Positions 1 to 11,585 of a stretch of 64,000 bases of DNA are shown here, piece after piece (position 1 is the first letter of the stretch; each line of letters starts with the position of its first letter). A program made the translations under genes and the position numbers. The DNA comes from Chroococcidiopsis sp. CCMEE 29. Lineage in GTDB: Bacteria; Cyanobacteriota; Cyanobacteriia; Cyanobacteriales; Chroococcidiopsidaceae. The stretch is taken from assembly GCF_023558375.1 (NCBI RefSeq), contig NZ_CP083761.1, positions 4,357,001 to 4,421,000 of the forward strand, read 5' to 3'. Below the pieces are notes generated by a model that did not search any database, was not told the origin of the DNA, and worked only from the letters and a program-made list of their open reading frames with translations.

Positions 1-3000
1 AGCGACAGATCGATCTATTAAGCCGTCTGCGCGATCGCGGCTTACTCAAAGGAGAGGTAGAGCGTTTATTCCACGAACTGCGGCGGACAGGTAACGAAGC
101 GACGCATACTCTGGCAGGAAACCACCGAACAGCTCTAAGTAACCTTAAATATGCTCGCCTGCTAGGAATTTGGTTCTATCGAGTAAAAACTAAAGACTCT
201 AACTTCAATCCCGGTCCTTTTATCCCACCAACTGATCCAGCAGTCGAAACCGAGGCACTGAAACAGGAACTAGAGAAACTACGTGCCGAATTAAGCACTA
301 GCTTACAAGCAACTGAGTTAGCCCAAATTGCTGCCCAGCAGGAGGAATTGCGACGGCAAGGAGCTGAAGAACTAGCACTTCTAGCAGAGGCAAAGGCGCA
401 AGAAGCTCTAAGCGACTTAGCTGCTATTCAAGCCCGTGCAGTTACTCAACCAATTCAAAATATTCAACAAACTATCCAGAAGGCTCAGCTCTTTGAGATT
501 GACTTAGACGAGCGGGAGACACGCCGCCTAATTGATATTCAACTGCGAAACGCTGGTTGGGAGGTAGATTCAGAACAGCTAACCTACCAGAATGGTACTC
601 GCCCCCAGAAAGGTAAAAATTTGGCGATCGCGGAATGGCCGACGCAAGCAGGACGAGCGGACTATGCTTTGTTCGTGGGACTGCAAGCGATCGCAGTAGT
701 CGAGGCGAAGCGTCAGAGCAAGGATGTTGCTTCCGGGGCAATCGATCAAGCCAAGCGCTATAGCCGAGATTTTCAGCTAGCGGGTGATGCCATCTTACCG
801 GGCGGTCCTTGGGGTGAATTCAAGGTTCCGTTTGTATTTGCGACTAACGGACGGGAGTTCTTGCAGCAGTTACGCACCAAAAGCGGGATTTGGTTTTGCG
901 ATCTGCGACAAAGAGGCAACCTACGCCGTCCCCTACCAACCTGGTACAGCCCCCAAGGATTGATGGATGCGCTAGCCCAAGATGTCGAGCAAGCCCAGCA
1001 GCGACTGGAACAGGAAGGCTTCGACTACAATCTGGAACTGCGCGAATACCAAATCAAAGCGATTCAATCAGTTGAATCGGTATTAGCTCAAGGGCAGAGG
1101 GAACTGCTAATCGCAATGGCGACAGGGACGGGGAAAACCAAAACCTGTATTGCTCTAGTCTATCGACTATTAAAGACTAAGCGCTTTCGCCGGGTGTTAT
1201 TTTTAGTAGACCGCAGGGCATTGGGAGAGCAAACTACTAATGCCTTTAAGGATTCGCGGATGGAGAACTTACAAACCTTTACCGATATTTTTGACCTCAA
1301 AGAACTGGGCGATACCGCACCCGACCGAGACACGAAGGTGCAAATTGCCACAGTCCAGAGTTTTGTCAAGCGCATCCTCTACCCCGGCGATGATACGCCA
1401 GCGTTGACAGCGGATCGATTCGATTGCATTGTAGTGGATGAATGCCACCGGGGGTATTTACTCGATCGAGAGTTAAGCGATAACGAGCTAACCTTCCGCG
1501 ACGAGTCTGATTACATCTCAAAGTATCGGCGCGTGTTGGATCATTTCGATGCCGTCAAAATTGGGTTAACTGCAACTCCGGCGCTACACACTACTCAAAT
1601 CTTTGGGGAACCGATCTACACCTACAGCTACCGAGAAGCTGTAATTGATGGCTGGCTGATTGACCACGAACCCCCCTTCCAGATTCGTACCAAGCTATCC
1701 GAAGATGGCATAGTGTGGAACTCCGGCGAGGCAATGGAATTTTTCGACCCTAAAACGGGGCAACTCGACCTGGTACACGCGCCAGATGAAGTCAAAATTG
1801 AGGTTGAGCAATTTAACAAGCGGGTGGTAACTGAAGAATTTAACCGGGTCGTTTGTGAAGTCCTAGCACGAAATATTGACCCGACCCTAGCAGAAAAAAC
1901 GCTGATCTTTTGTGCTACTGATAATCATGCTGACATTGTGGTGGACCAACTCAAACTGGCTCTAGCAGACCAATACGGCAGTGTGGAAGACGACGCAGTG
2001 GTAAAGATTACGGGGAGTGCCGATAAACCTCTGCAACTGATCCGGCAGTTTCGCAATGAAGTTAATCCTAAAATTGCCGTGACTGTAGACTTACTAACGA
2101 CAGGAATTGATGTCCCTCCTATCTGTAACTTAGTGTTTATCCGCCGCGTCAACTCTCGCATTCTGTACGAACAAATGCTTGGTCGGGCGACGCGGCGCTG
2201 CGATGAGATTGGGAAGCAAGTCTTTCGCATCTTTGATGCCGTGAATTTGTATGAGGCGATCGCTCCTGTCTCTACCATGAAGCCCATTGCTGTTAATCCC
2301 AACATTTCGTTTACTCAGTTGGTGGACGAGTTAGCGACAGTCGAAGATGCAGGGGCATTAGCAGAAATTGTTGACCAACTCTTAGCTAAACTTCAACGCC
2401 AGCGCCGACAACTAAGCGACGATCATACCGAAGCAATTGAAGCGATCGCCTCAATGCCAATTCAAGATCTGGTCGAACACCTACGGCAAACTAACCCGAT
2501 GCAGCTCAAAGAATGGTTTCGCGATCGCGCTGCTATTGCCCAAATTTTGGATATGCGGGATGGGGGTACGCAACCGCTGCTGGTTTCTCGTCATGCTGAC
2601 GAATTGCGGGGAGTTGAGCGGGGTTACGGCAATGCCCAAAAACCCGCCGACTACTTGGACAGTTTCAAAGCCTTCTTACAGGACAATTTAAATCAAATTC
2701 CCGCCCTGATTGTCGTTACCTCTCGCCCCCGCGACTTGACTAGAGCGCAACTGAAAGAACTACGGTTGCTGCTGGACGCAGCAGGTTACTCGGAAACGAA
2801 ACTGCAAGCGGCGTGGCGGGAGACAACGAATGAAGACATTGCCGCTTCGATTATTGGTTTTATCCGCCAAGCAGCATTAGGCGATGCCCTAGTGTCTTAC
2901 GAGCAACGGGTAGATAGAGCGATCGCCAAAATCTTAGCAAGTCGGGCATGGACTCCCCCACAGCGCAAGTGGCTAGAGCGGATCGCCAAACAACTCAAGG

Positions 3001-3149
3001 TAGAAACCATTATGGATCGAGAAGCCTTAGATCGAGGGGAGTTTAAAACACAGAGCGGGGGCTTTACTCGGATCGACAAAATATTTGATGGACAACTGGG
3101 AGAGATTTTGACCCAGATTAACGCCAACCTCTGGCAGGATGCCGTTTAG
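1..3149 (+). CDS. hsdR: Type I restriction enzyme R subunit (HsdR), 5' partial
   Basis: ATP-dependent translocase and nuclease subunit of a type I restriction-modification complex. The frame is open from the left edge (codons from base 3), so the true start lies outside the window; the internal TTG at 348 is not a convincing start. In order there is a DUF4145-like N-terminal part (HELRRTGNEATH, about 75-110), a coiled linker, the HSDR_N nuclease-like region, then a superfamily 2 helicase with Walker A ATGTGKTKT (near 1117-1146), a DECH box (near 1435) and GLTATP (near 1562), and an EcoEI-type C-terminal domain. It is followed by hsdM and a disrupted hsdS on the same strand. The family call is firm; activity is doubtful because hsdS is broken. 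Confidence 0.95.
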   Translation, partial: RQIDLLSRLRDRGLLKGEVERLFHELRRTGNEATHTLAGNHRTALSNLKYARLLGIWFYRVKTKDSNFNPGPFIPPTDPAVETEALKQELEKLRAELSTSLQATELAQIAAQQEELRRQGAEELALLAEAKAQEALSDLAAIQARAVTQPIQNIQQTIQKAQLFEIDLDERETRRLIDIQLRNAGWEVDSEQLTYQNGTRPQKGKNLAIAEWPTQAGRADYALFVGLQAIAVVEAKRQSKDVASGAIDQAKRYSRDFQLAGDAILPGGPWGEFKVPFVFATNGREFLQQLRTKSGIWFCDLRQRGNLRRPLPTWYSPQGLMDALAQDVEQAQQRLEQEGFDYNLELREYQIKAIQSVESVLAQGQRELLIAMATGTGKTKTCIALVYRLLKTKRFRRVLFLVDRRALGEQTTNAFKDSRMENLQTFTDIFDLKELGDTAPDRDTKVQIATVQSFVKRILYPGDDTPALTADRFDCIVVDECHRGYLLDRELSDNELTFRDESDYISKYRRVLDHFDAVKIGLTATPALHTTQIFGEPIYTYSYREAVIDGWLIDHEPPFQIRTKLSEDGIVWNSGEAMEFFDPKTGQLDLVHAPDEVKIEVEQFNKRVVTEEFNRVVCEVLARNIDPTLAEKTLIFCATDNHADIVVDQLKLALADQYGSVEDDAVVKITGSADKPLQLIRQFRNEVNPKIAVTVDLLTTGIDVPPICNLVFIRRVNSRILYEQMLGRATRRCDEIGKQVFRIFDAVNLYEAIAPVSTMKPIAVNPNISFTQLVDELATVEDAGALAEIVDQLLAKLQRQRRQLSDDHTEAIEAIASMPIQDLVEHLRQTNPMQLKEWFRDRAAIAQILDMRDGGTQPLLVSRHADELRGVERGYGNAQKPADYLDSFKAFLQDNLNQIPALIVVTSRPRDLTRAQLKELRLLLDAAGYSETKLQAAWRETTNEDIAASIIGFIRQAALGDALVSYEQRVDRAIAKILASRAWTPPQRKWLERIAKQLKVETIMDREALDRGEFKTQSGGFTRIDKIFDGQLGEILTQINANLWQDAV

Positions 3150-3189
3150 CGGTTCTTGGTATCTCCAGGTAATACTCTGGACGACATCG

Positions 3190-3218
3190 TATAATAAATG
3201 TACGCGATTACGTACATT
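3190..3218 (+). promoter_or_regulatory. Promoter and operator palindrome of the yefM-yoeB module
   Basis: A perfect inverted repeat AATGTACG / CGTACATT (3197-3204 and 3211-3218, 6-nt spacer) lies just upstream of the antitoxin start at 3224. A TATAAT -10 box (3190-3195) abuts it. YefM-type antitoxins are known to bind operators with a TGTACA core, and each half here carries TGTAC. The layout predicts an autoregulated promoter inside the hsd operon, driving antitoxin, toxin and, by overlap, hsdM. No good -35 box is visible. Confidence 0.65.
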
Positions 3219-3223
3219 AACTT

Positions 3224-3526
3224 ATGCTGTCCTACGAAACGACTTCTCCGACAGAGGCAAGAAACAACTTTTTTAATTTGCTAGAGCAAGTGGTTGAGAA
3301 TCATCAAGTGTTTATTATCCATCGCCGCGAAGGTGAAAATGTGGCGCTGATTTCTGAGTCGGACTTGCAAAGTTTAGTCGAGACTGTTTATCTGTTGCGA
3401 TCGCCTGCTAATGCGCGAAGGTTGCTGGATGCGATTGAAGAGTCTCGATCGGGTAAAACTCCGCCGCAAACACTGGAAGAACTGAAACGGGAGTTAGGTT
3501 TTGGGCAAGAAAAAGAAGCCCCCTAA
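3224..3526 (+). CDS. yefM: Antitoxin of the Phd/YefM family
   Basis: Antitoxin of 100 aa. The N-terminal DNA-binding part has the Phd/YefM pattern (TEARNNFFNLLEQV, residues 10-23; VFIIHRREGENVALIS, residues 29-44). The C-terminal half (residues 55-100) is helical and charged and would wrap the toxin. It overlaps the YoeB toxin frame by 26 nt, and a TGTAC palindrome with a -10 box sits just upstream. It should bind that operator and neutralise the toxin. The module lies between hsdR and hsdM, where it could stabilise the island. The family call is sure; the stabilising role is inferred. Confidence 0.9.
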   Translation: MLSYETTSPTEARNNFFNLLEQVVENHQVFIIHRREGENVALISESDLQSLVETVYLLRSPANARRLLDAIEESRSGKTPPQTLEELKRELGFGQEKEAP

Positions 3527-3812
3527 ACCAGCCGAGCCATCGCCCATACAGGTACGAGTTCCTGGTTTTAGTTCGCGATTTAAAGAGGACTTGGGGTGGT
3601 GGTACAAGACCAATCCTGCTAAGGTAGACAAGATTTTTGACTTGGTAACGAATGTGATGCAATACCCCTTCGGGGGAATTGGCAAGCCAGAACCGCTGAA
3701 ATACCTGGGTGCAGATCTCTGGTCCCGGCGGATTGACCTGGAGCATCGCTTAGTCTATCGAGTCAGTAACACTCAAATTGATTTTCTCACTTGTCGCTAT
3801 CACTACGAATGA
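3501..3812 (+). CDS. yoeB: Toxin of the Txe/YoeB family (mRNA interferase)
   Basis: RelE-superfamily endoribonuclease toxin of 103 aa that would cleave mRNA at the ribosome. YoeB hallmarks are present: DLGWWYKTNP, PFGGIGKPEPLKYL, LWSRRIDLEHRLVYRV and the C-terminal CRYHYE, which contains the catalytic His-Tyr. The TTG start at 3501 overlaps the antitoxin and gives an unusual lysine/proline-rich leader (KKKKPPKPAEPSP); no later start codon fits the domain. The stop overlaps the hsdM ATG (ATGA at 3809-3812), so toxin and methylase translation are probably coupled. It looks intact. Confidence 0.92.
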   Translation: MGKKKKPPKPAEPSPIQVRVPGFSSRFKEDLGWWYKTNPAKVDKIFDLVTNVMQYPFGGIGKPEPLKYLGADLWSRRIDLEHRLVYRVSNTQIDFLTCRYHYE

Positions 3813-5281
3813 ACGCCACTACCGATATTGTCCAAAAACTCTGGAATTTGTGCCACGTTCTGCGGGATGAGGGTATTTCCTATCTCCAGTACGTCACGGA
3901 GTTGACCTACCTGCTGTTTCTCAAGATGATGCAGGAAACGGGGAATGAAAGCCAACTACCAGAGGGCTATCGTTGGGCAGATTTAGTAGCAAAGGAGGGG
4001 GTAGAGCAGATTACCTTTTATCGCGCTCTACTACTAGAGTTGGGAACGAGTGGAGCGGAGCGAGTACAGGCAATCTTTGCTAATGCCCAAACTGCCCTAA
4101 AACAGCCCCGCATCCTCAATAAGCTGGTAACAAGTATTGACCAGTTGGATTGGTATTCTGCCAAAGCAGAAGGACTAGGCGACTTGTACGAGGGATTACT
4201 AGAAAAGAACGCCAGCGAGAAAAAGTCAGGAGCAGGGCAGTATTTTACGCCGCGATCGCTGATTGATTGTATGGTAGAGCTAATTCAACCCCAACCAGGG
4301 GAACTGGTGCAAGACCCCGCAGCAGGGACAGGTGGATTTTTGATTGCTAGCGATCGCTACATTAAGCAGCGCACTGATGACCTGTTCGACTTGCCAGAAG
4401 CCCAGCAGTCTTTCCAGCGCCATCAAGCATTTTACGGTATTGAATTAGTGCAGGATGCCCATCGCTTGTTGCTGATGAATATGATGCTGCACGGGATTGA
4501 AGGGGCAGTAGGGTTAGGCGATACCCTCTCCCCTGATGGACAGCGCTTGGCTAAAGCAGATGTAATTCTGACTAATCCTCCGTTTGGCACCAAGAAGGGT
4601 GGCGGTTTGCCATCGCGGGATGATTTCACTTATCCCACCTCAAATAAGCAGCTGGCGTTTTTGCAGCATATCTATCGCAGTCTGAAGCCAGGGGGTCGCG
4701 CTGCTGTAGTCCTACCAGATAATGTGCTGTTTGAAGATGGGCAGGGTCGCCAAATTCGAGCTGACTTGATGGATAAATGTAACCTACATACAATTTTGCG
4801 GCTACCTACAGGGATTTTCTATGCCCAAGGAGTCAAAACGAATGTGCTGTTTTTCCAGCGGGGCTTGACTGAAAAGAGCAATACCAAGCAGGTGTGGATT
4901 TACGATATGCGGACGAATATGCCTGCTTTTGGTAAGCGAATTCCGCTGAATAGAGAGCATTTTCGGGAGTTCGAGGCGGCGTATGGCAACGATCCAAATG
5001 GGGAAAGTCCGCGTATTGATCAAGGGGAATTAGGGCGGTTCCGCTGCTTTACGCGGGAAGCGATCGCCAAACGTAATGACAACCTGGATATTTCCTGGCT
5101 GCGGGATGAAAGTTTACAGTCGGGGGATAATCTACCGGAACCGGATGAGATTGCGGCTTTAATTATGACGAAGTTACAAACAGCAATGGAGGAAATGGAG
5201 GCGTTAACAGCATTGCTGTCAGGAGATGGAGTAGAGAGTGAAGACCAGCTACTTGCAGTTGAGTCAAAGAAGGTAGAGTGA
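3809..5281 (+). CDS. hsdM: Type I restriction-modification methyltransferase subunit (HsdM)
   Basis: N6-adenine DNA methyltransferase subunit, about 490 aa. An N-terminal HsdM_N helical bundle (residues 1-130) precedes an N6_Mtase domain with AdoMet motif I DPAAGTGGFL (near 4315) and catalytic motif IV NPPF (4573-4584). The ATG at 3809 is chosen because it overlaps the yoeB stop by 4 nt; an in-frame TTG at 3791 is less likely. With HsdS it would methylate the recognition sequence and with HsdR restrict unmodified DNA. No other promoter is obvious, so expression may depend on the toxin-antitoxin promoter at 3190. Confidence 0.95.
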   Translation: MNATTDIVQKLWNLCHVLRDEGISYLQYVTELTYLLFLKMMQETGNESQLPEGYRWADLVAKEGVEQITFYRALLLELGTSGAERVQAIFANAQTALKQPRILNKLVTSIDQLDWYSAKAEGLGDLYEGLLEKNASEKKSGAGQYFTPRSLIDCMVELIQPQPGELVQDPAAGTGGFLIASDRYIKQRTDDLFDLPEAQQSFQRHQAFYGIELVQDAHRLLLMNMMLHGIEGAVGLGDTLSPDGQRLAKADVILTNPPFGTKKGGGLPSRDDFTYPTSNKQLAFLQHIYRSLKPGGRAAVVLPDNVLFEDGQGRQIRADLMDKCNLHTILRLPTGIFYAQGVKTNVLFFQRGLTEKSNTKQVWIYDMRTNMPAFGKRIPLNREHFREFEAAYGNDPNGESPRIDQGELGRFRCFTREAIAKRNDNLDISWLRDESLQSGDNLPEPDEIAALIMTKLQTAMEEMEALTALLSGDGVESEDQLLAVESKKVE

Positions 5282-5327
5282 AAAAGCACATATAAACATA
5301 TAGGAATACCAAACAATTGGGAGCAAG

Positions 5328-5588
5328 ATGATGAATTCTGAGCCATTAGCATCGGTGCAGCTGTCTGAAGGCATCGCTAAGCTAAAAATGCTTCCCCAAG
5401 AAAAACAGCTTGAGGTACTGGATTTTATTGAGTTTTTACAAGCCAAGGTAAATCAGCAGGGCAAAGCTAAAAGTAGTTGGCAACCAGGAATATCAGCTTT
5501 AGAAGCAGCGGGTGACTTAGTGGGTAGCGTCGAGGGACCAGAAGATCTGTCTACTAATGCAGAGTATATGCAAGGATTTGGGGAGTAG
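5328..5588 (+). CDS. Probable antitoxin, DUF2281-like
   Basis: Small acidic protein of 86 aa. The segment LSEGIAKLKMLPQEKQLEVLDFIEFLQ is typical of DUF2281/VapB-like proteins that precede PIN toxins in cyanobacteria. The stop TAG overlaps the GTG start of the PIN gene by one base (5588), the usual architecture of a VapBC-like pair. It would bind and inhibit the neighbouring PIN ribonuclease. The family assignment rests on sequence pattern and context. Confidence 0.75.
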   Translation: MMNSEPLASVQLSEGIAKLKMLPQEKQLEVLDFIEFLQAKVNQQGKAKSSWQPGISALEAAGDLVGSVEGPEDLSTNAEYMQGFGE

Positions 5589-6007
5589 TGAGGCAGCAAG
5601 TTCTACTAGATACGGGTCCCCTGGTTGCTTTAGTTAATCGACGCGATCGCTTTCACCAATGGGTTAAAACAGAATGGATGCAGATTGAGCCACCCCTGCT
5701 TACTTGCGAAGCAGTGATTACAGAAGCCAGCTTCTTATTAAGAAATATTTATGGCGGTCAGAAAGTCGTAATGTCTCTAATAGAGCGAGGCATAATCCAA
5801 ATTCCATTTCGCTTAGAGGAAGAGGTAGAGCTTGTGGGGATACTGTTGAGCCGTTATCAGTCTGTACCAATGTCGTTAGCTGATGCCTGTTTGGTACGGA
5901 TGGTTGAGCAATATGTGTCAAGTTATTTGCTGACGCTAGATAGTGATTTCAACATCTATCGCAAAGACAGAAATCAGCTGATTCCTGTCATTATGCCTAG
6001 CGATTAA
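5588..6007 (+). CDS. PIN-domain ribonuclease toxin (VapC-like)
   Basis: PIN-domain protein of 139 aa. The acidic residues expected for the metal site are visible: D8 in LLDTGPLVAL, the glutamate in CEAVITEASFLL, the aspartate in SLADACLVRM and another in LLTLDSDF. The start is GTG at 5588, overlapping the antitoxin stop. VapC-like toxins cleave RNA, often tRNA. It is the second toxin-antitoxin pair in the hsd operon and appears full length. Confidence 0.88.
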   Translation: MRQQVLLDTGPLVALVNRRDRFHQWVKTEWMQIEPPLLTCEAVITEASFLLRNIYGGQKVVMSLIERGIIQIPFRLEEEVELVGILLSRYQSVPMSLADACLVRMVEQYVSSYLLTLDSDFNIYRKDRNQLIPVIMPSD

Positions 6008-6018
6008 TGTAAATAATT

Positions 6019-6312
6019 ATGAGAACTCTAGAAGAGATTAAGCAACTGCTCCAGCAAAGTAAATCGGTGTTGCGGGAGAACTACAAGGTGACGGAATTAG
6101 GCATTTTTGGTTCTTATGTTCGGGGGGAGCAAAATGAAGCAAGTGATATTGAGGTCTTGATCGACTACGAAAAGGCTCCGACTCTGTTTAAGTTAGTAGA
6201 GCTTCGTAACTACTTAAACGAACTGACAGGAATGAAGGTAGATGTAGTGACTAAAAAGGGTTTAAAGCCAAGAATTCGAGAACGGGTATTGTCAGAAGTC
6301 GTTTATTTATGA
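6019..6312 (+). CDS. mntA: MntA-type minimal nucleotidyltransferase (antitoxin)
   Basis: Minimal nucleotidyltransferase of 97 aa with the signature G31-S32 ... S42-D43-I-E45. The family pattern is GSX10DXD; here the second aspartate is glutamate, which may reduce activity. In HepT/MntA (type VII) systems MntA neutralises the HepT RNase by adding AMP to it. The next gene overlaps by 4 nt and is a truncated HepT, so this looks like an antitoxin that outlived its toxin. Confidence 0.85.
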   Translation: MRTLEEIKQLLQQSKSVLRENYKVTELGIFGSYVRGEQNEASDIEVLIDYEKAPTLFKLVELRNYLNELTGMKVDVVTKKGLKPRIRERVLSEVVYL

Positions 6313-6524
6313 CGGAACGGCAGCTTTCAGAGTTTTTGCAGGATATTTTGGATACGATTGCAGATATCGAAACTTTTACGGAGAATGTCGAGTTTGAAGC
6401 GTTTCAAGCGAATCGAGAAAAAGTTTTAGCAGTTGTTAAAAATATAATAGTAGAGACAATCATTTCTATTAGGAATTCATGCAAATTCAAATTGCCATAC
6501 CAGATAACGTCGCCCATTCTTTAG
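6309..6524 (+). pseudogene. hepT: Truncated HepT-like toxin (DUF86)
   Basis: The first 50 or so residues match the HepT/DUF86 N-terminus (RQLSEFLQDILDTIADIETFT, then AVVKNI). The rest of the roughly 110-aa family, including the HEPN motif R-x4-6-H-x-Y, is missing. The frame instead runs into the following gene and ends at 6524. The start overlaps mntA by 4 nt. The toxin is therefore predicted inactive. Confidence 0.75.
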
Positions 6525-6760
6525 AGGCAAAATGGGGCAGTTTAGAACGGAAGTTACTAGAAATGCTAGTAATCGCCGCCTATCAAGAAGGCTCGCTCAG
6601 TGCTGGTAAAGTGCGAGAAATGCTGGGTATGTCTACGAGGTTAGAAGTCGATGCGTTTCTAAAAGAGAAGGGTGTATATCTGCACTACGATGAGGCTGAT
6701 TTTGAACAAGATGTATCAACTATGCGAAGGCTGGAACAAGAGGGACAGCTAAAGCGGTAA
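6479..6760 (+). CDS. UPF0175 family antitoxin
   Basis: Protein of 93 aa with the UPF0175 layout: QIAIPDNVAHSLEAKWGSLERKLLEMLVIAAYQEGSLSAGKVREMLGMSTRLEVDAFL in order over residues 3-62, including a predicted helix-turn-helix (SAGKVREMLGMST). Its TAA stop overlaps the ATG of the downstream DUF3368 PIN gene by one base (6760). UPF0175 and DUF3368 proteins are a recurrent antitoxin-toxin pair in cyanobacteria. It overlaps the truncated hepT frame, suggesting the hepT deletion brought the two modules together. Confidence 0.85.
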   Translation: MQIQIAIPDNVAHSLEAKWGSLERKLLEMLVIAAYQEGSLSAGKVREMLGMSTRLEVDAFLKEKGVYLHYDEADFEQDVSTMRRLEQEGQLKR

Positions 6761-7245
6761 TGATTGTTGTTTCGGACACTTCGCCTCTGTGCTACTTACT
6801 AGTAATTGAAGGAATTGAAGTTTTACCCCAGTTGTTTGGTCGAGTGATTATTCCTCAAAGAGTACGTGATGAGTTATTAGCCCCCGGTGCTCCTAAACTT
6901 GTTCAAGAGTGGATATCACAGCCGCCAGATTGGTTAGAGGTGCAAACCATTCCAGATCAAATTGATGCAGCCTTAAATCAGTTGGATGTGGGAGAGCAGG
7001 AAGCCATTACCTTAGCTCTTCAACTACAAGCAGATTTAATTTTATTAGATGACTTGGCAGCAAGACGCATAGCAACCCAGTTGCAACTAGAGATTGTCGG
7101 TTTGCTAGGTATTCTTAGTTCTGCGGCAGAGAAAGGAATAGTTGATTTTTCCTCTGTGATCGCTCGTCTACAACAAACCTCATTTCGAGCCTCACCAAAA
7201 TTGATTCAGTCGCTTTTGCAGCAGCACCACTCAGAAGATAAGTAG
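6760..7245 (+). CDS. DUF3368 PIN-like ribonuclease toxin
   Basis: PIN-like protein of 161 aa. Features are the N-terminal VVSDTSPLCYLL with the first metal-binding aspartate, IIPQRVRDELL, then LDVGEQEAITLAL and LILLDDLAARRIA, which contain the remaining acidic residues. The ATG start overlaps the UPF0175 stop by one base. It is predicted to be an RNA-cleaving toxin held by that antitoxin. It is the last toxin-antitoxin gene before hsdS and appears full length. Confidence 0.88.
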   Translation: MIVVSDTSPLCYLLVIEGIEVLPQLFGRVIIPQRVRDELLAPGAPKLVQEWISQPPDWLEVQTIPDQIDAALNQLDVGEQEAITLALQLQADLILLDDLAARRIATQLQLEIVGLLGILSSAAEKGIVDFSSVIARLQQTSFRASPKLIQSLLQQHHSEDK

Positions 7246-7375
7246 GAAAAGATTGAAGTTATGCATATTGGCTGTGACTGCTGGGTTTAGGTGAAATTTT
7301 TGATGAGATAGATGAGAGTCGATGGGGCTTGAAAAGTTAAAAGCTTCGCATAAGTTTTAGATGGAGGTGTAGAAA

Positions 7376-7504
7376 GTGTTGGAGATAGAAAAAGAGAGTC
7401 TACCTTTGGGTTGGTCGTTGGCTATATTAAGCCAGGTCACAACCAAACTAGTTGATGGCTCTCACAATCCACCCCCAAAGCAAGAAGATGGTCTACCTGC
7501 TTGA
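7376..7504 (+). pseudogene. hsdS: 5' fragment of hsdS, cut off by insertion
   Basis: GTG at 7376 with a GGAGGTG ribosome site (near 7362) opens a frame encoding the classic start of an HsdS target-recognition domain (LPLGWSLAILSQVTTKLVDG, then SHNPPPKQEDGLP). It is in frame up to GATGGTCTACCT (7487-7498) and then hits a stop in inserted DNA at 7502. The downstream part at 10110 resumes exactly after the same 12 bases with MLSARNIENG. Joining the two restores a continuous specificity subunit. Confidence 0.9.
7487..7498. repeat. Target-site duplication, left copy (12 bp)
   Basis: GATGGTCTACCT here is repeated exactly at 10098-10109. Both encode DGLP of hsdS in the correct frame. A 12-bp duplication fits IS4-type transposition and marks the outer limits of the inserted DNA. 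Confidence 0.88.
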
Positions 7505-7544
7505 CTTGTATCTTTAAATTAGACTGATTAAACTCAGTTTACAG

Positions 7545-7721
7545 GTCTACTCTCTAGTCAAGAGAGTGGGAGGTACAAGCGAGTCTGGTGGTTGACGGAG
7601 GCGCTACAGCTTGGTTGTCAGATAAAGACCGTTGTCACCTCAATCTGATTGGATTCTCTAAATCTGGACGGTATCTAAAGCAACTGTAACAATAGTAGAG
7701 CTTGCATACACAAGTGTAGTT
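7545..7721 (+). ncRNA. Candidate bridge RNA of the IS110 element
   Basis: Non-coding left end of the element. A 5' stem-loop (7549-7555 pairs with 7561-7567) comes first. Then come TGGTTGAC (7589-7596), 7/8 to left target TGCTTGAC; TTGTCAG (7615-7621), complementary to core plus right target CTGACAA; GACGGTATCT (7667-7676), identical to the element's right end plus core; and ACACAAG (7708-7714), 6/7 to the complement of core plus left end CTTGTAT. This is the order of target and donor guides in IS621-type bridge RNAs. Exact RNA ends are a guess. Confidence 0.68.
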
Positions 7722-7770
7722 GAGAGCCAGTCACCTGTGGTTAACTCAGGATGTAAGGGAACAAGACTAT

Positions 7771-8757
7771 ATGGAAACAGCGGTTTTAGGGATTGATGTT
7801 GGTAAGAGTAAAGTGCATGTTTGTTTACTCCTACCAAACGGCAAGAGTAAACCAAAAGCATTAGGGAACAATCTAGAGGGGTATCAAGAACTTTTAAATT
7901 GGCTATCAAGACAAGGAATCACTAAAGTGCACGCTTGTATGGAGGCTACAGGGAGTTATGGCAGCGCCTTAGCACGATACTTCTACGAGCAGGAACAAAC
8001 GGTGAGTCTAGTCAATCCCAGCCGAGTAAAGGGATTTGCTATCAGTGAAATGACGCGAACCAAAACAGACAAGGTAGATGCTGGAGTCATTGCTCGGTTT
8101 TGCGCCGCACTGCATCCGCCTAGCTGGAGTCCACCTGCTGCTGAGATTGAGCAACTACAGGCAATCATGCGGCGACTCGAATCGCTCAATCAAATGCTAC
8201 AACAGGAGAAGAACCGTTTAGATGTCACTGATAACCCAGATGTACAAGCGTCGATTTCAAGCCACATTCAGTTTTTAGAGAACGAGCTCGGCAAGACACG
8301 GCAATTGATTCATACTCACTTCAAGCAGCATACAAACTTGAGAGCCCAACGCGATTTGCTCACTTCAATTCCAGGTGTGGGAGAGCAAACCGCTGCCAGC
8401 ATCTTGGCAGAAATTGGTAGTGTGACTACCTTTGAAAGCGCCCGTCAATTGGCTGCCTATAGTGGGCTGACACCGCGTGAGCGCACAAGTGGCACTTCTG
8501 TAAGAGGCAAGACAAGTCTTTCGCGCATCGGTAACTCTAGACTTCGCAAGGCTTTGTTCATGCCTGCTTTAACAGCTGCTCAATGTAATCCGATTTTACA
8601 TGACCTCTGGGAACGCCTGTTGAGACGTGGCAAGACCAAAATGGTTGCAGTAGGAGCCGTGATGCGAAAATTACTACATTTAGCATTTGGAGTCCTCAAG
8701 TCAGGAAAACCTTTCGACCCTGATTACGGTAAGCCACTTGCAACTGTTGCTGCTTGA
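7771..8757 (+). CDS. IS110-family DEDD recombinase
   Basis: Transposase of about 328 aa from ATG 7771; an upstream in-frame start at 7720 would add unconserved residues. The N-terminal RuvC-like DEDD domain shows LGIDVGKSKVHV, CMEATGSYG and TKTDKVDAGVIARF. The C-terminal Transposase_20 domain has TSIPGVGEQTAASILAEIG and SGTSVRGKTSLSRIGNSRLR, which contains the conserved catalytic serine. It appears full length and intact. IS110 recombinases use a bridge RNA encoded next to them, and a candidate lies directly upstream. Confidence 0.93.
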   Translation: METAVLGIDVGKSKVHVCLLLPNGKSKPKALGNNLEGYQELLNWLSRQGITKVHACMEATGSYGSALARYFYEQEQTVSLVNPSRVKGFAISEMTRTKTDKVDAGVIARFCAALHPPSWSPPAAEIEQLQAIMRRLESLNQMLQQEKNRLDVTDNPDVQASISSHIQFLENELGKTRQLIHTHFKQHTNLRAQRDLLTSIPGVGEQTAASILAEIGSVTTFESARQLAAYSGLTPRERTSGTSVRGKTSLSRIGNSRLRKALFMPALTAAQCNPILHDLWERLLRRGKTKMVAVGAVMRKLLHLAFGVLKSGKPFDPDYGKPLATVAA

Positions 8758-8829
8758 GAATAAGACAGTTATTGTACTTATGAAAAAATCCCTAAATAGG
8801 TTGCCAAAACAAGACGGTATCTGACAAAA

Positions 8830-9998
8830 CTAAGAAGCTGGAAAGCGTCTGAGGACGGTGAATTCACGCTCGAAGGAATCATTGTGTTGTCGCTTGGAAG
8901 CAAGGGCAGGTTGAGGGTCATGCAAACTTGAGAGGCACCGATAAACCTGAATCTTCCATTGGTGGGTGATGGCGAGGCGAATCCAATTCCAACCAATTTT
9001 CAGATAACTCATGCCCCGATTCGAGTGAGTATCGACTTGGCGACGCTTGCCCGACGCGACCACCTGCACTCCTTGCAGCACCAGAAACAGCATGGTCAAG
9101 GCAATCACCCCGCATAAGTGCGAGAGGGCAAACTTGTCCCGCAACCTGGAGGCTTCGAGATTGAATCCGTTCGACTTGAGATCCAAAAAGGATTGCTCGA
9201 CCTGAAACCGGAGTCGGTATTGAGCAAACGTTTGCAAGTTCGTCCATCGCTCACAATCGTCCAATCCTCGCCACTGGGCTTGTCATGGGCAAACGCTAGG
9301 TAAACGTTGGGGTAGGGTTTGGTTTTACCCACCGACACCATCGGCGTAAAATAAGCTTGTCCGGGCTGCAACGGGATGGACGACACTTTGCGCCATTGTC
9401 CTTGGTACTGAAACTGAAATGAACGTTTAATCCGAATCCGAAAATGCCAACTCAGATTCTCTCGGAGGTACTTCATCAGTTTGCCATCGGCGAAGCCCCG
9501 GTCTGCCAGCAGGACAATTGCTACCCCATCGGGCAGGATTGTTTGAGCTTGTCGCAGGACCCGCTGAATCGTCCATAACCGGACGGTGCTGCTGGAGTGT
9601 GCCACCACTCGCCAAGCAATGGGAACGGTTCTGCCTCGATCCACCACGCCCACCCACACGATGCAAAAACAATTCCATACCACCGTCGTGTCCAGGCTCA
9701 AATACAGCCGTTTCTGGCTCCACTCAGACAGGGCTTGCTCAATCAGGGCATGATGAGCGGCAATGACATTAATGCGTCGATTTGACAACCAACGCCGAAA
9801 CCGTCTCTGATGCGACTGCGCGACTTGAGCTCGGCTAATCACATACACGCCAAACCCGCCCAGATGCACGTTCTGGCTTTGAATCATCCCTATCATCATC
9901 CAGCAGAGCGTTTGTAAGTGCCGCGCATCTTGCCATTGAATCTCACATTGACTCAGATATTGCGACAACGCATCATAGAGACGGGAAGTAGGAGCCAT
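8830..9998 (-). pseudogene. IS4-family transposase, frameshifted
   Basis: Two overlapping - strand frames make up one DDE transposase of about 390 aa. The N-terminal part (9998 down to near 9250) has LSLDTTVVW and LLADRGFADGKLMKYL with the first two catalytic aspartates. The C-terminal part (near 9250 down to 8830) has QYRLRFQVEQSFLDLKS, the Y-x2-R-x3-E-x6-K signature of IS4 transposases. The frame changes near 9245-9255, after EDWTIVSD. A single-base indel is the simplest explanation, so this copy is probably inactive. Confidence 0.85.
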
Positions 9999-10097
9999 TG
10001 ATTTTGCTGTTAGGTGTGGTAACTTTCCAGCTTAAACCAGGCTCTGCTTCCCTCCTAGCTTGACTTTCGACCTCAACATCTTTTGTCAGTCAGTCAG

Positions 10098-10109
10098 GAT
10101 GGTCTACCT
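10098..10109. repeat. Target-site duplication, right copy (12 bp)
   Basis: GATGGTCTACCT, identical to 7487-7498. It directly precedes the surviving 3' part of hsdS and follows the right end of the IS4-type element. Confidence 0.88.
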
Positions 10110-11585
10110 ATGCTTAGTGCTCGGAACATTGAAAACGGACGCATTATTTTTGATGAGTATAGATTCATTGAACGAACTGCGTTTGAGACAGAGGACGCTA
10201 GAACACGGGTACGTCCTGGCGATGTATTACTAACTATTGTCGGCGCAATTGGCAGGGCTGCAACTGTACCAGAAAACATTAAACCCTTCACGCTTCAGAG
10301 GAGTGTAGCTGTTCTCTGTCCTATTGGTATAACCCCTGATTTCCTCATGTATCAACTGCACTCTCCACAAGTGCAGAAAAAACTGATTCGGGAAGCGAAA
10401 GGCACAGCACAAAAGGGAGTTTATCTAAAGACATTGGGTAAGCTGGAACTGCTCATTCCACCTATTAACGAGCAACACAGCATTGTTGCCAAAATTGAAG
10501 CGCTGAAGGCTCGGAGTCAGCAGGTGAAGGAGGCGCTTGAGGCAATTCCTCCTCTCCTAGACCAGTTCCGTCAATCAGTTCTCGCCGCCGCCTTTCGTGG
10601 GGATTTAACTGCTAATTGGCGAGAGAAAAACCCAGACATCGAACCTGCATCAGTTTTGCTAGAGCGTATTTGTGCAGAACGTCGCCGCCGTTGGGAAGAA
10701 GCCGAACTGGAGAGGATGAAGGCTAATGGCAAAGTACCTACGGATAATAAATGGAAGTCGAAATACAAGCAACCTGAGTCAGTTGACGCTCTTGAATTAC
10801 CTAAATTACCTAATGGGTGGTGCTGGGCATTCGTAGAGTCGCTCTCTACAAAAGTTGTGGATGGAGTTCATAAGAAACCAAACTATACTGAGGCTGGTAT
10901 ACCATTTGTAACCATAAAGAACTTAACTGCTGGTTCTGGCATAAGTTTCGATGAAATCAATTATATTTCGCTAGAAGATCATGAGGAGTTTTTCAAACGC
11001 GCGAACCCTGAATGCGGTGACATCCTGATAACAAAAGATGGGACTCTAGGTGTCGTAAGAGTTGTTCGCACAGATATTATATTCAGTATTTTTGTTTCGG
11101 TAGCTTTAGTGAAGCCTGTTACCTACAAAATGAGTGATTATCTTGAGTTAGCCTTCTCCTGTCCACAAATGCGCGAGCAAATGTTGGGCACAGGAATAGG
11201 ACTGATGCACATTCACCTAAAAGACTTACGACGCTATGCCGTTCCAGTTGCTCCTCTAGAAGAACAGCAAGAAATCGTCCGTAGAATTCAATTCTTATTC
11301 AAAGCTGCTGACAAAATCGAACAACAATACCGAGAAGTTAAAGCCAACCTTGAATTACTGGATCAATCCATCCTCGCCAAAGCCTTTCGCGGCAAACTGG
11401 TTCCCCAAGATCCCAACGACGAGCCTGCATCTGTCCTGCTAGAACGCATTCGCGCAGAACGAGCAAAACGAGAAGCCGAAGCTAAAGCCGCCAAGAAATC
11501 GACAGGCAAGACAACTGGACGACGCAGCAGGAAAGCACAACAGCAATCAGAGTCAACTCAATTGGAGTTACCAGGATTGGAATAG
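10110..11585 (+). pseudogene. hsdS: 3' part of the type I specificity subunit (HsdS)
   Basis: It encodes nearly all of HsdS after the first 40 or so residues. The remainder of target-recognition domain 1 (MLSARNIENGRIIFDEYRF) is followed by the first conserved helix repeat (LIPPINEQHSIVAKIEALKAR, near 10450). The second recognition domain starts LPNGWCWAFVESLS (near 10805) and a second spacer helix (PLEEQQEIVRRIQFLFKAADKIEQQ, near 11250) precedes a lysine-rich tail. An ATG at 10110 could start a shortened protein. The insertion removes the first domain's N-terminus and the native ribosome site, so function is probably lost. Confidence 0.9.

Follow-up and report, generated by a model that had tools for sequence, protein, structure and literature searches.

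In the 64,000-nucleotide (nt) stretch of the Chroococcidiopsis sp. CCMEE 29 genome analyzed here (contig NZ_CP083761.1, positions 4,357,001 to 4,421,000; ‘the window’), a toxin–antitoxin (TA) module of the yefM-yoeB type lies between hsdR and hsdM, the nuclease and methylase genes of a type I restriction–modification system. On balance, sequence comparison inclines us to regard this module as a self-contained cassette, whose own promoter and operator feed hsdM beside read-through from hsdR. All four genes lie on the + strand. The hsdR gene stops at 3149 and, after a gap of 74 bases, is followed by yefM (3224–3526; 100 amino acids), yoeB (3501–3812; 103 amino acids, TTG start) and hsdM (3809–5281). 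An earlier, sequence-only reading of the region proposed that an antitoxin-controlled promoter sets the level of the methylase, and links modification to stress. It described the junctions correctly: yoeB, beginning at its TTG, overlaps the end of yefM by 26 nt, and the ATG of hsdM sits on the yoeB stop, in the sequence ATGA.

The case for the operator is made by its conservation across relatives of yefM, and not by counts of the motif or of the −10 hexamer alone. Upstream of yefM, a −10 box, TATAAT (3190–3195, + strand), with no convincing −35, is followed by a predicted YefM-type operator, AATGTACG-cgatta-CGTACATT (3197–3218, + strand). The earlier reading had named both, the operator as a ‘TGTAC palindrome’, and both are present in the sequence. 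The operator comprises two TGTACA-like hexamers at a conserved spacing, TGTACG (3199–3204) and CGTACA (3211–3216), each with one mismatch, 12 base pairs (bp) apart center to center. The operators of Escherichia coli yefM-yoeB and of axe-txe likewise consist of two TGTACA cores 12 bp apart, a spacing described as maintained in many bacteria (PMC7730913, PMC4803016). We assembled 58 distinct upstream regions of yefM relatives, the window's own among them, from fetched loci in which the tblastn match to YefM began within the first 15 residues, and scored as a pair two TGTACA-like hexamers with no more than two mismatches in 12. Pairs occur in 42 of the 58: 20 upstreams have one at 12 bp and 23 have one at 13 bp (one has both). 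Shuffled upstreams yield 0.25 at 12 bp and 0.6 at 13 bp, and fewer than one at every distance; in the genuine upstreams, distances of 8–11 and 14–19 bp are represented by 1–5 of the 58. The 17 highest-scoring motif-bearing upstreams all have the 12-bp spacing, and in 16 of these, the window's included, the operator is preceded at no more than 14 nt by a −10-like hexamer. Such a hexamer precedes the operator in 25 of the 42 motif-bearing upstreams, where stretches taken at random from these regions would give ~7. Within the hsdR–yefM gap, moreover, similarity to G001, the other genome in which we found this gene order, resides chiefly in the −10 box, operator and leader. Because the hexamer pair is conserved in this way, relative to shuffles, the promoter and operator are very probably genuine, of the YefM type, and part of the TA cassette. 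The same operator is found on closely related yefM-yoeB pairs away from hsd genes, as would be expected of a cassette.

Counts of the motifs themselves say less. In the window, TGTAC-N8-GTACA in its exact form has a single occurrence (0.03 expected), but TGTAC-N7/8-GTACA forms palindromes at seven places genome-wide, and the reversed control at three, so by itself the motif is not unique. A mere match to TATAAT, with 19 in the window versus ~30 expected, was dropped as evidence. A second yefM-yoeB is present in this genome (L049, G000:C1:1760129-1760705; G000 being this genome), with a TGGACA pair 13 bp apart and a YoeB match that contains one stop. Cross-regulation between the two copies seems unlikely because their repeats differ.

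Both proteins are recognizable members of their families. YefM matches the Pfam family PhdYeFM_antitox (PF02604, E 2.4e-18) and aligns with 2a6q_A, and YoeB matches YoeB_toxin (PF06769, E 8.4e-27) and aligns with 2a6q_E; PF02604, PF06769 and TIGR02116 all score above cut-off, and the narrower YefM equivalog model, NF008499, falls below it, at 73.7 of 121 bits. With regard to its catalytic residues, YoeB retains the blocks GKPEPLK, WSRRI, EHRLVY and CRYHY in the alignment with 2a6q_E. R13 and R34 of YefM face two arginines of 2a6q_A that have the same spacing of 21; we take the latter to be R10 and R31 of the E. coli protein, assuming an offset of three from a tag. R10 and R31 are ascribed a role in DNA binding (PMC4803016). 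The two genes are under purifying selection between this genome and G001, with ratios of nonsynonymous to synonymous substitution (dN/dS) of 0.06 (NG86) and 0.14 (YN00) for yefM, and of 0.13 and 0.24, respectively, for yoeB.

Transcription from the yefM promoter is likely to continue into hsdM, for no + strand terminator-like site was found in a scan of 3149–3809, the toxin stop lies on the hsdM start, and the junction in G001 is also tight, with yoeB ending 8 nt before hsdM. By eye, no Shine–Dalgarno-like sequence precedes the hsdM ATG, and the overlap with the toxin stop suits coupled translation.

The position between hsdR and hsdM is not peculiar to yefM-yoeB. We compared 42 hsdM loci, taken not at random but as the top matches within this HsdM subfamily. 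From a first set of 23 loci, nine were dropped (L064-L072; 40–46% identity, and without yefM or yoeB hits); a second set drew on 56 listed matches, of which 30 were provided with loci, two of them (L050, L053) repeats, and the remaining 26 were left out. L104 and L110 are one locus, and were counted once. The end of hsdR is visible upstream in 30 of the 42, and L058 has hsdR pieces only. In seven other cyanobacterial loci, a Phd/YefM-family antitoxin gene followed by a PIN toxin gene occupies the slot. These belong to genomes G603 (which matches a Kovacikia minuta plasmid record), G477, G589, G502, G574, G424 and G602, and the modules lie, with hsdM turned to the + strand, at L143 3147-3856, L104 3292-4001, L138 5571-6275, L139 5611-6356, L140 4305-5015, L141 5253-5960 and L142 4356-5084. 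The count derives from tblastn matches and the reading of open reading frames (ORFs), with Pfam searches on three of the antitoxins and four of the toxins. All seven modules share the orientation of the hsdR before them and the hsdM after them. The PIN stop overlaps the hsdM start by 4 nt in two (ATGA, as here), and lies 6 nt before it in three, 15 nt in one and 29 nt in another. Upstream of each of the seven is a pair of octamers resembling ATAGCCAT, exactly 12 bp apart (0–2 mismatches in 16), for which shuffling gives a mean of 0.0 and other distances 0–1 of 7. Because the octamer was read off the same seven sequences, independent weight belongs to the 12-bp spacing more than to the motif. 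In five of the seven, by eye, a TAnAAT box runs into, or lies just before, the first octamer. One of these loci, L139 (G502), has an hsdR (2046–4414, hsdM on +) that seemingly lacks its middle (query residues 462–732); its Phd-PIN module and hsdM look whole.

Altogether, TA modules with phased repeats of their own, representing two toxin families, stand directly ahead of hsdM in nine of the 42 loci (yefM-yoeB in two and Phd-PIN in seven). Within this set, the arrangement is thus recurrent, and not obligatory. Recurrence of a second TA family suggests that the slot tolerates or favors such modules, but the restriction system can dispense with them. The Phd-PIN loci are scattered on the HsdM tree, requiring at least five changes; one early gain followed by losses is possible, as fragments of PIN genes left in the slot at L124 and L129 suggest. 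Other occupants of the slot include an antisense Uma2 gene and genes for DUF3800, TPR and pentapeptide proteins. At L054 (G081; 755–1474, hsdM on +), the slot is taken by a co-oriented ORF, 26 nt before hsdM, that encodes an adenylate/guanylate cyclase catalytic domain (PF00211, E 1.5e-13), and at L060 (G070; 632–1388) by an antisense RelE toxin/helix–turn–helix (HTH) antitoxin pair.

If the cassette works as we envisage, hsdM would have two inputs, read-through from hsdR and the internal promoter. RNA polymerase starting near 3202 would produce a yefM-yoeB-hsdM message, which might run on across the following TA genes as far as hsdS. YefM would repress the 3190 promoter, YoeB serving as its co-repressor, and the promoter would open when YefM is scarce, either because the antitoxin is proteolyzed or because the locus has entered a cell that has none. 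Low antitoxin would then raise the methylase relative to the nuclease: hsdR is upstream and so would not be raised by the internal promoter, and a higher methylase-to-nuclease ratio would therefore be expected. A bolder proposal is that, among a group of type I systems of cyanobacteria, Phd/YefM modules have been placed between hsdR and hsdM repeatedly, as devices for ratio and timing. The antitoxin would repress a promoter that serves hsdM and later genes alone, and its scarcity (upon stress, phage attack or transfer to a new cell) would raise the methylase before the nuclease, as with the C proteins of type II systems, while the toxin would penalize loss. We put this forward tentatively and think it rather doubtful.

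A number of observations count against the cassette feeding hsdM, or against its mattering. Some concern the promoter itself, which has no recognizable −35, and whose operator has a different first hexamer in G001 (CGTACA). The palindrome pattern recurs at six further places in the genome, and 16 of the 58 yefM upstreams are without the motif, including that of L015, a fairly close relative (67% identity); some motif-less upstreams have the toxin gene first. The 121-nt RNA around the operator (3120–3240) folds better than shuffles (z −3.05) and has no U-run; the fold might change read-through from hsdR in either direction, and hsdR read-through could in any case dominate the transcription of hsdM. 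The sign of the effect is also uncertain. YoeB is a translation-dependent mRNA nuclease, and because the free toxin cleaves translated mRNAs, possibly that of hsdM among them, it could cancel the methylase gain at low antitoxin. In this strain, finally, hsdS is interrupted, and HsdM may be idle.

Other such observations concern gene order. Besides this genome, G001 is the one other in which we found hsdR-yefM-yoeB-hsdM, and the order is otherwise hardly conserved. Among 64 fetched yoeB stretches (most reaching 1.5 kb to either side, some places duplicated, and this genome included), co-oriented hsd genes accompany yoeB only in these two genomes, and general conservation of yefM-yoeB-hsdM is therefore rejected; a third stretch (L022, G058) has hsdM in the opposite orientation. 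A sample of 292 genomes of the phylum includes 64 with yoeB and 169 with N6_Mtase; by eye, among the matches listed, this genome alone has the two as same-strand neighbors. Of the 42 hsdM loci, 40 do not show the order, and in 33 of these no intact TA module of either kind abuts hsdM. In 10, hsdM begins ≤66 nt past the end of the HsdR match, directly after hsdR, and the two genes are also in direct contact on one Bradyrhizobium and one Zymomonas plasmid. The closest HsdM relative, in G011 (93% identity), is without the module, its slot holding instead a 186-amino-acid ORF with no Pfam match, and yet it groups with this genome to the exclusion of G001 in the HsdM tree (99/93 support). The module must therefore have been replaced or lost in G011, or else gained twice. 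For the earlier proposal, the outcome is mixed. An antitoxin-controlled promoter ahead of hsdM gains from the conserved operator, the retention of R10/R31, the lack of a terminator-like site, the tight junction in both genomes and the occurrence of a different TA type in the same slot of seven other loci. The putative link between modification and stress suffers from the rarity of the order, from its absence in G011, from the 10 loci in which hsdM directly follows hsdR, from the uncertain sign of the effect and from the interrupted hsdS.

How hsdM might be transcribed otherwise can be considered in several ways. One is that it has a promoter of its own inside yoeB, the TA promoter being irrelevant to it, which we judge improbable. 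Promoters of cyanobacteria often lack consensus boxes, and our consensus scan could miss one. It found no + strand promoter-like site from 3149 to the hsdM start, and so none in 3224–3809, which agrees with the earlier remark that no other hsdM promoter is evident; but it is uninformative either way, returning three sites in 1–8000 versus 10.2 in shuffles (upstream of hsdR, 2 versus 1.2) and missing the one at 3190. As it does not beat chance, we discarded it as evidence. What speaks against such a promoter is the hsdM start itself, which, as noted, appears suited to translation coupled to that of the toxin. A weightier alternative, and a real possibility although not the one we prefer, is that the module is a passenger and stabilizer. 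TA addiction modules would then settle in a permissive slot and keep the operon, their promoters would be self-serving, and hsdM would be expressed mainly by read-through from hsdR. The many unrelated kinds of insert (Uma2, a cyclase-domain ORF, DUF3800, RelE/HTH, TPR and pentapeptide proteins) are in keeping with this, as are the direct contact of hsdR and hsdM in some relatives, the three further TA-like pairs after hsdM, and the absence of the module from G011. Stabilization is, besides, the published reading for the TA genes of the Synechocystis hox operon (PMC4963859). On the other side, the operon-like spacing to hsdM in nine of nine TA loci, from a 4-nt overlap to a 29-nt gap, and the lack of a terminator-like site here make it likely that some hsdM transcript is TA-driven, whatever was selected for.

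A last alternative gives the toxin a part in defense. Blocking or loss of the restriction complex would free the toxin and stop growth, and coupling would keep toxin, antitoxin and methylase in step. There are published parallels: PrrC, which backs up the PrrI system, is embedded in the hsdMSR neighborhood of PrrI (PMC3710099), and phages are countered by an island in which a type I system encloses DarTG2 (PMC12255303). The antitoxins considered here, though, are dedicated YefM/Phd proteins. To our knowledge, no contact has been described between YoeB or PIN toxins and Hsd proteins. We consider this second line of defense very unlikely, and retain, as the account to be preferred, a cassette that feeds hsdM from its own promoter.

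The surrounding locus brings together the type I genes hsdR, hsdM and hsdS, the last of them split. The hsdR gene (1–3149 in the window, + strand; 1110 codons overall) matches the NCBIfam model PRK11448 for a type I endonuclease (1524 bits), and its ATG is 184 bases upstream of the window start, at G000:C1:4356817, as seen in the extended stretch L048. It is the first gene of the cluster: ~800 bp 5′ of it contain no ORF of 80 amino acids in its orientation, and beyond these is a divergent gene that we read as gatC. Control of hsdR by YefM through an upstream operator was not supported, L048 containing seven loose matches (3.8 by chance) and none in the 800 bp before hsdR; alignment of this region with G001 revealed no usable footprint by eye. 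HsdM has N6_Mtase (PF02384, E 8.2e-77) and HsdM_N (E 1.6e-07) domains. Between hsdM and hsdS are three TA-like pairs in tandem (5328–7245), all on the + strand: a DUF2281/PIN pair (5328–6007), conserved in G001; an MNT/HepT-like pair (6019–6524), in which HepT is shortened to 71 amino acids versus 116 in G001; and a UPF0175/DUF3368 pair (6479–7245), also found 3′ of hsdM in G011. The end of the shortened HepT overlaps the start of the next antitoxin, as if recombination had brought one pair into another. Two of the three pairs are present in the G001 operon, together with a tail fragment of the third and a full-length hsdS (517 amino acids). In this strain, hsdS is cut after ~41 codons by ~2.6 kb that include an IS110-family transposase gene and another (DDE) transposase gene. 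Insertion sequences thus separate its 5′ piece (7376–7501, + strand) from the remainder (10083–11585, + strand; Methylase_S, E 8.6e-20), and GATGGTCTACCT is repeated on both sides of the interruption (7376–10083). Because of this, modification by the system may be lost or altered, and activity in restriction or modification is doubtful here; a promoter that raises an idle HsdM would consequently have little effect in this strain.

Restriction systems need the methylase ahead of the nuclease, above all on entering a new host. Proteolysis of HsdR by ClpXP, described for some type I systems, is one known answer (PMC12707154). If our account is true, an antitoxin-controlled promoter in the slot ahead of hsdM would meet the same need at the level of transcription, and some TA modules of defense loci would have a concrete job. 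The RptR-RMS-DarTG2 island of enteropathogenic E. coli also has TA genes within a type I locus, and its hsdM is preceded by an autorepressor, RptR, whose repeats overlie the −10 box; the hsdM transcript of the island rises on infection (PMC12255303). Unlike an antitoxin, RptR is a dedicated regulator; it heads the island, and DarTG2 lies between hsdS and hsdR (PMC12255303). In the present locus, by contrast, the antitoxin itself would regulate, and hsdR is upstream of the controlled promoter. The gene at that promoter encodes YefM and not an RptR (for which the rest of the genome was not searched), and the repeats differ too: those of RptR are of the TAGCTA type, while the window has a TGTACA-like pair and the Phd-PIN loci have ATAGCCAT. 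Another Phd-family TA among type I hsd genes, with a demonstrated effect on a downstream gene of its operon, is TvrAT (Phd-Doc-like) of the pneumococcal SpnIV tvr locus; it sits among hsdS segments between hsdM and hsdR, and limits a recombinase gene and not hsdM (PMC6265443). E. coli yefM-yoeB and enterococcal axe-txe belong to the same families and have the same 12-bp TGTACA pair, described there as the operator of the TA unit itself (PMC7730913, PMC4803016), whereas in the present locus the TA unit runs directly into a methylase gene. The TA module in the Synechocystis hox locus is, similarly, inside a cyanobacterial operon, but one for hydrogenase (PMC4963859). We found no report, in the open-licence literature, of hsdM preceded by the promoter of a YefM/Phd antitoxin; TA genes in a type I locus and an autorepressed hsdM promoter are already known, and what is new here is the Phd-PIN module in the same slot of seven other cyanobacterial loci. 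The C proteins of type II systems are HTH regulators whose genes typically precede that of the nuclease. Like these small autoregulators, the antitoxin here would favor the methylase before the nuclease in a new host.

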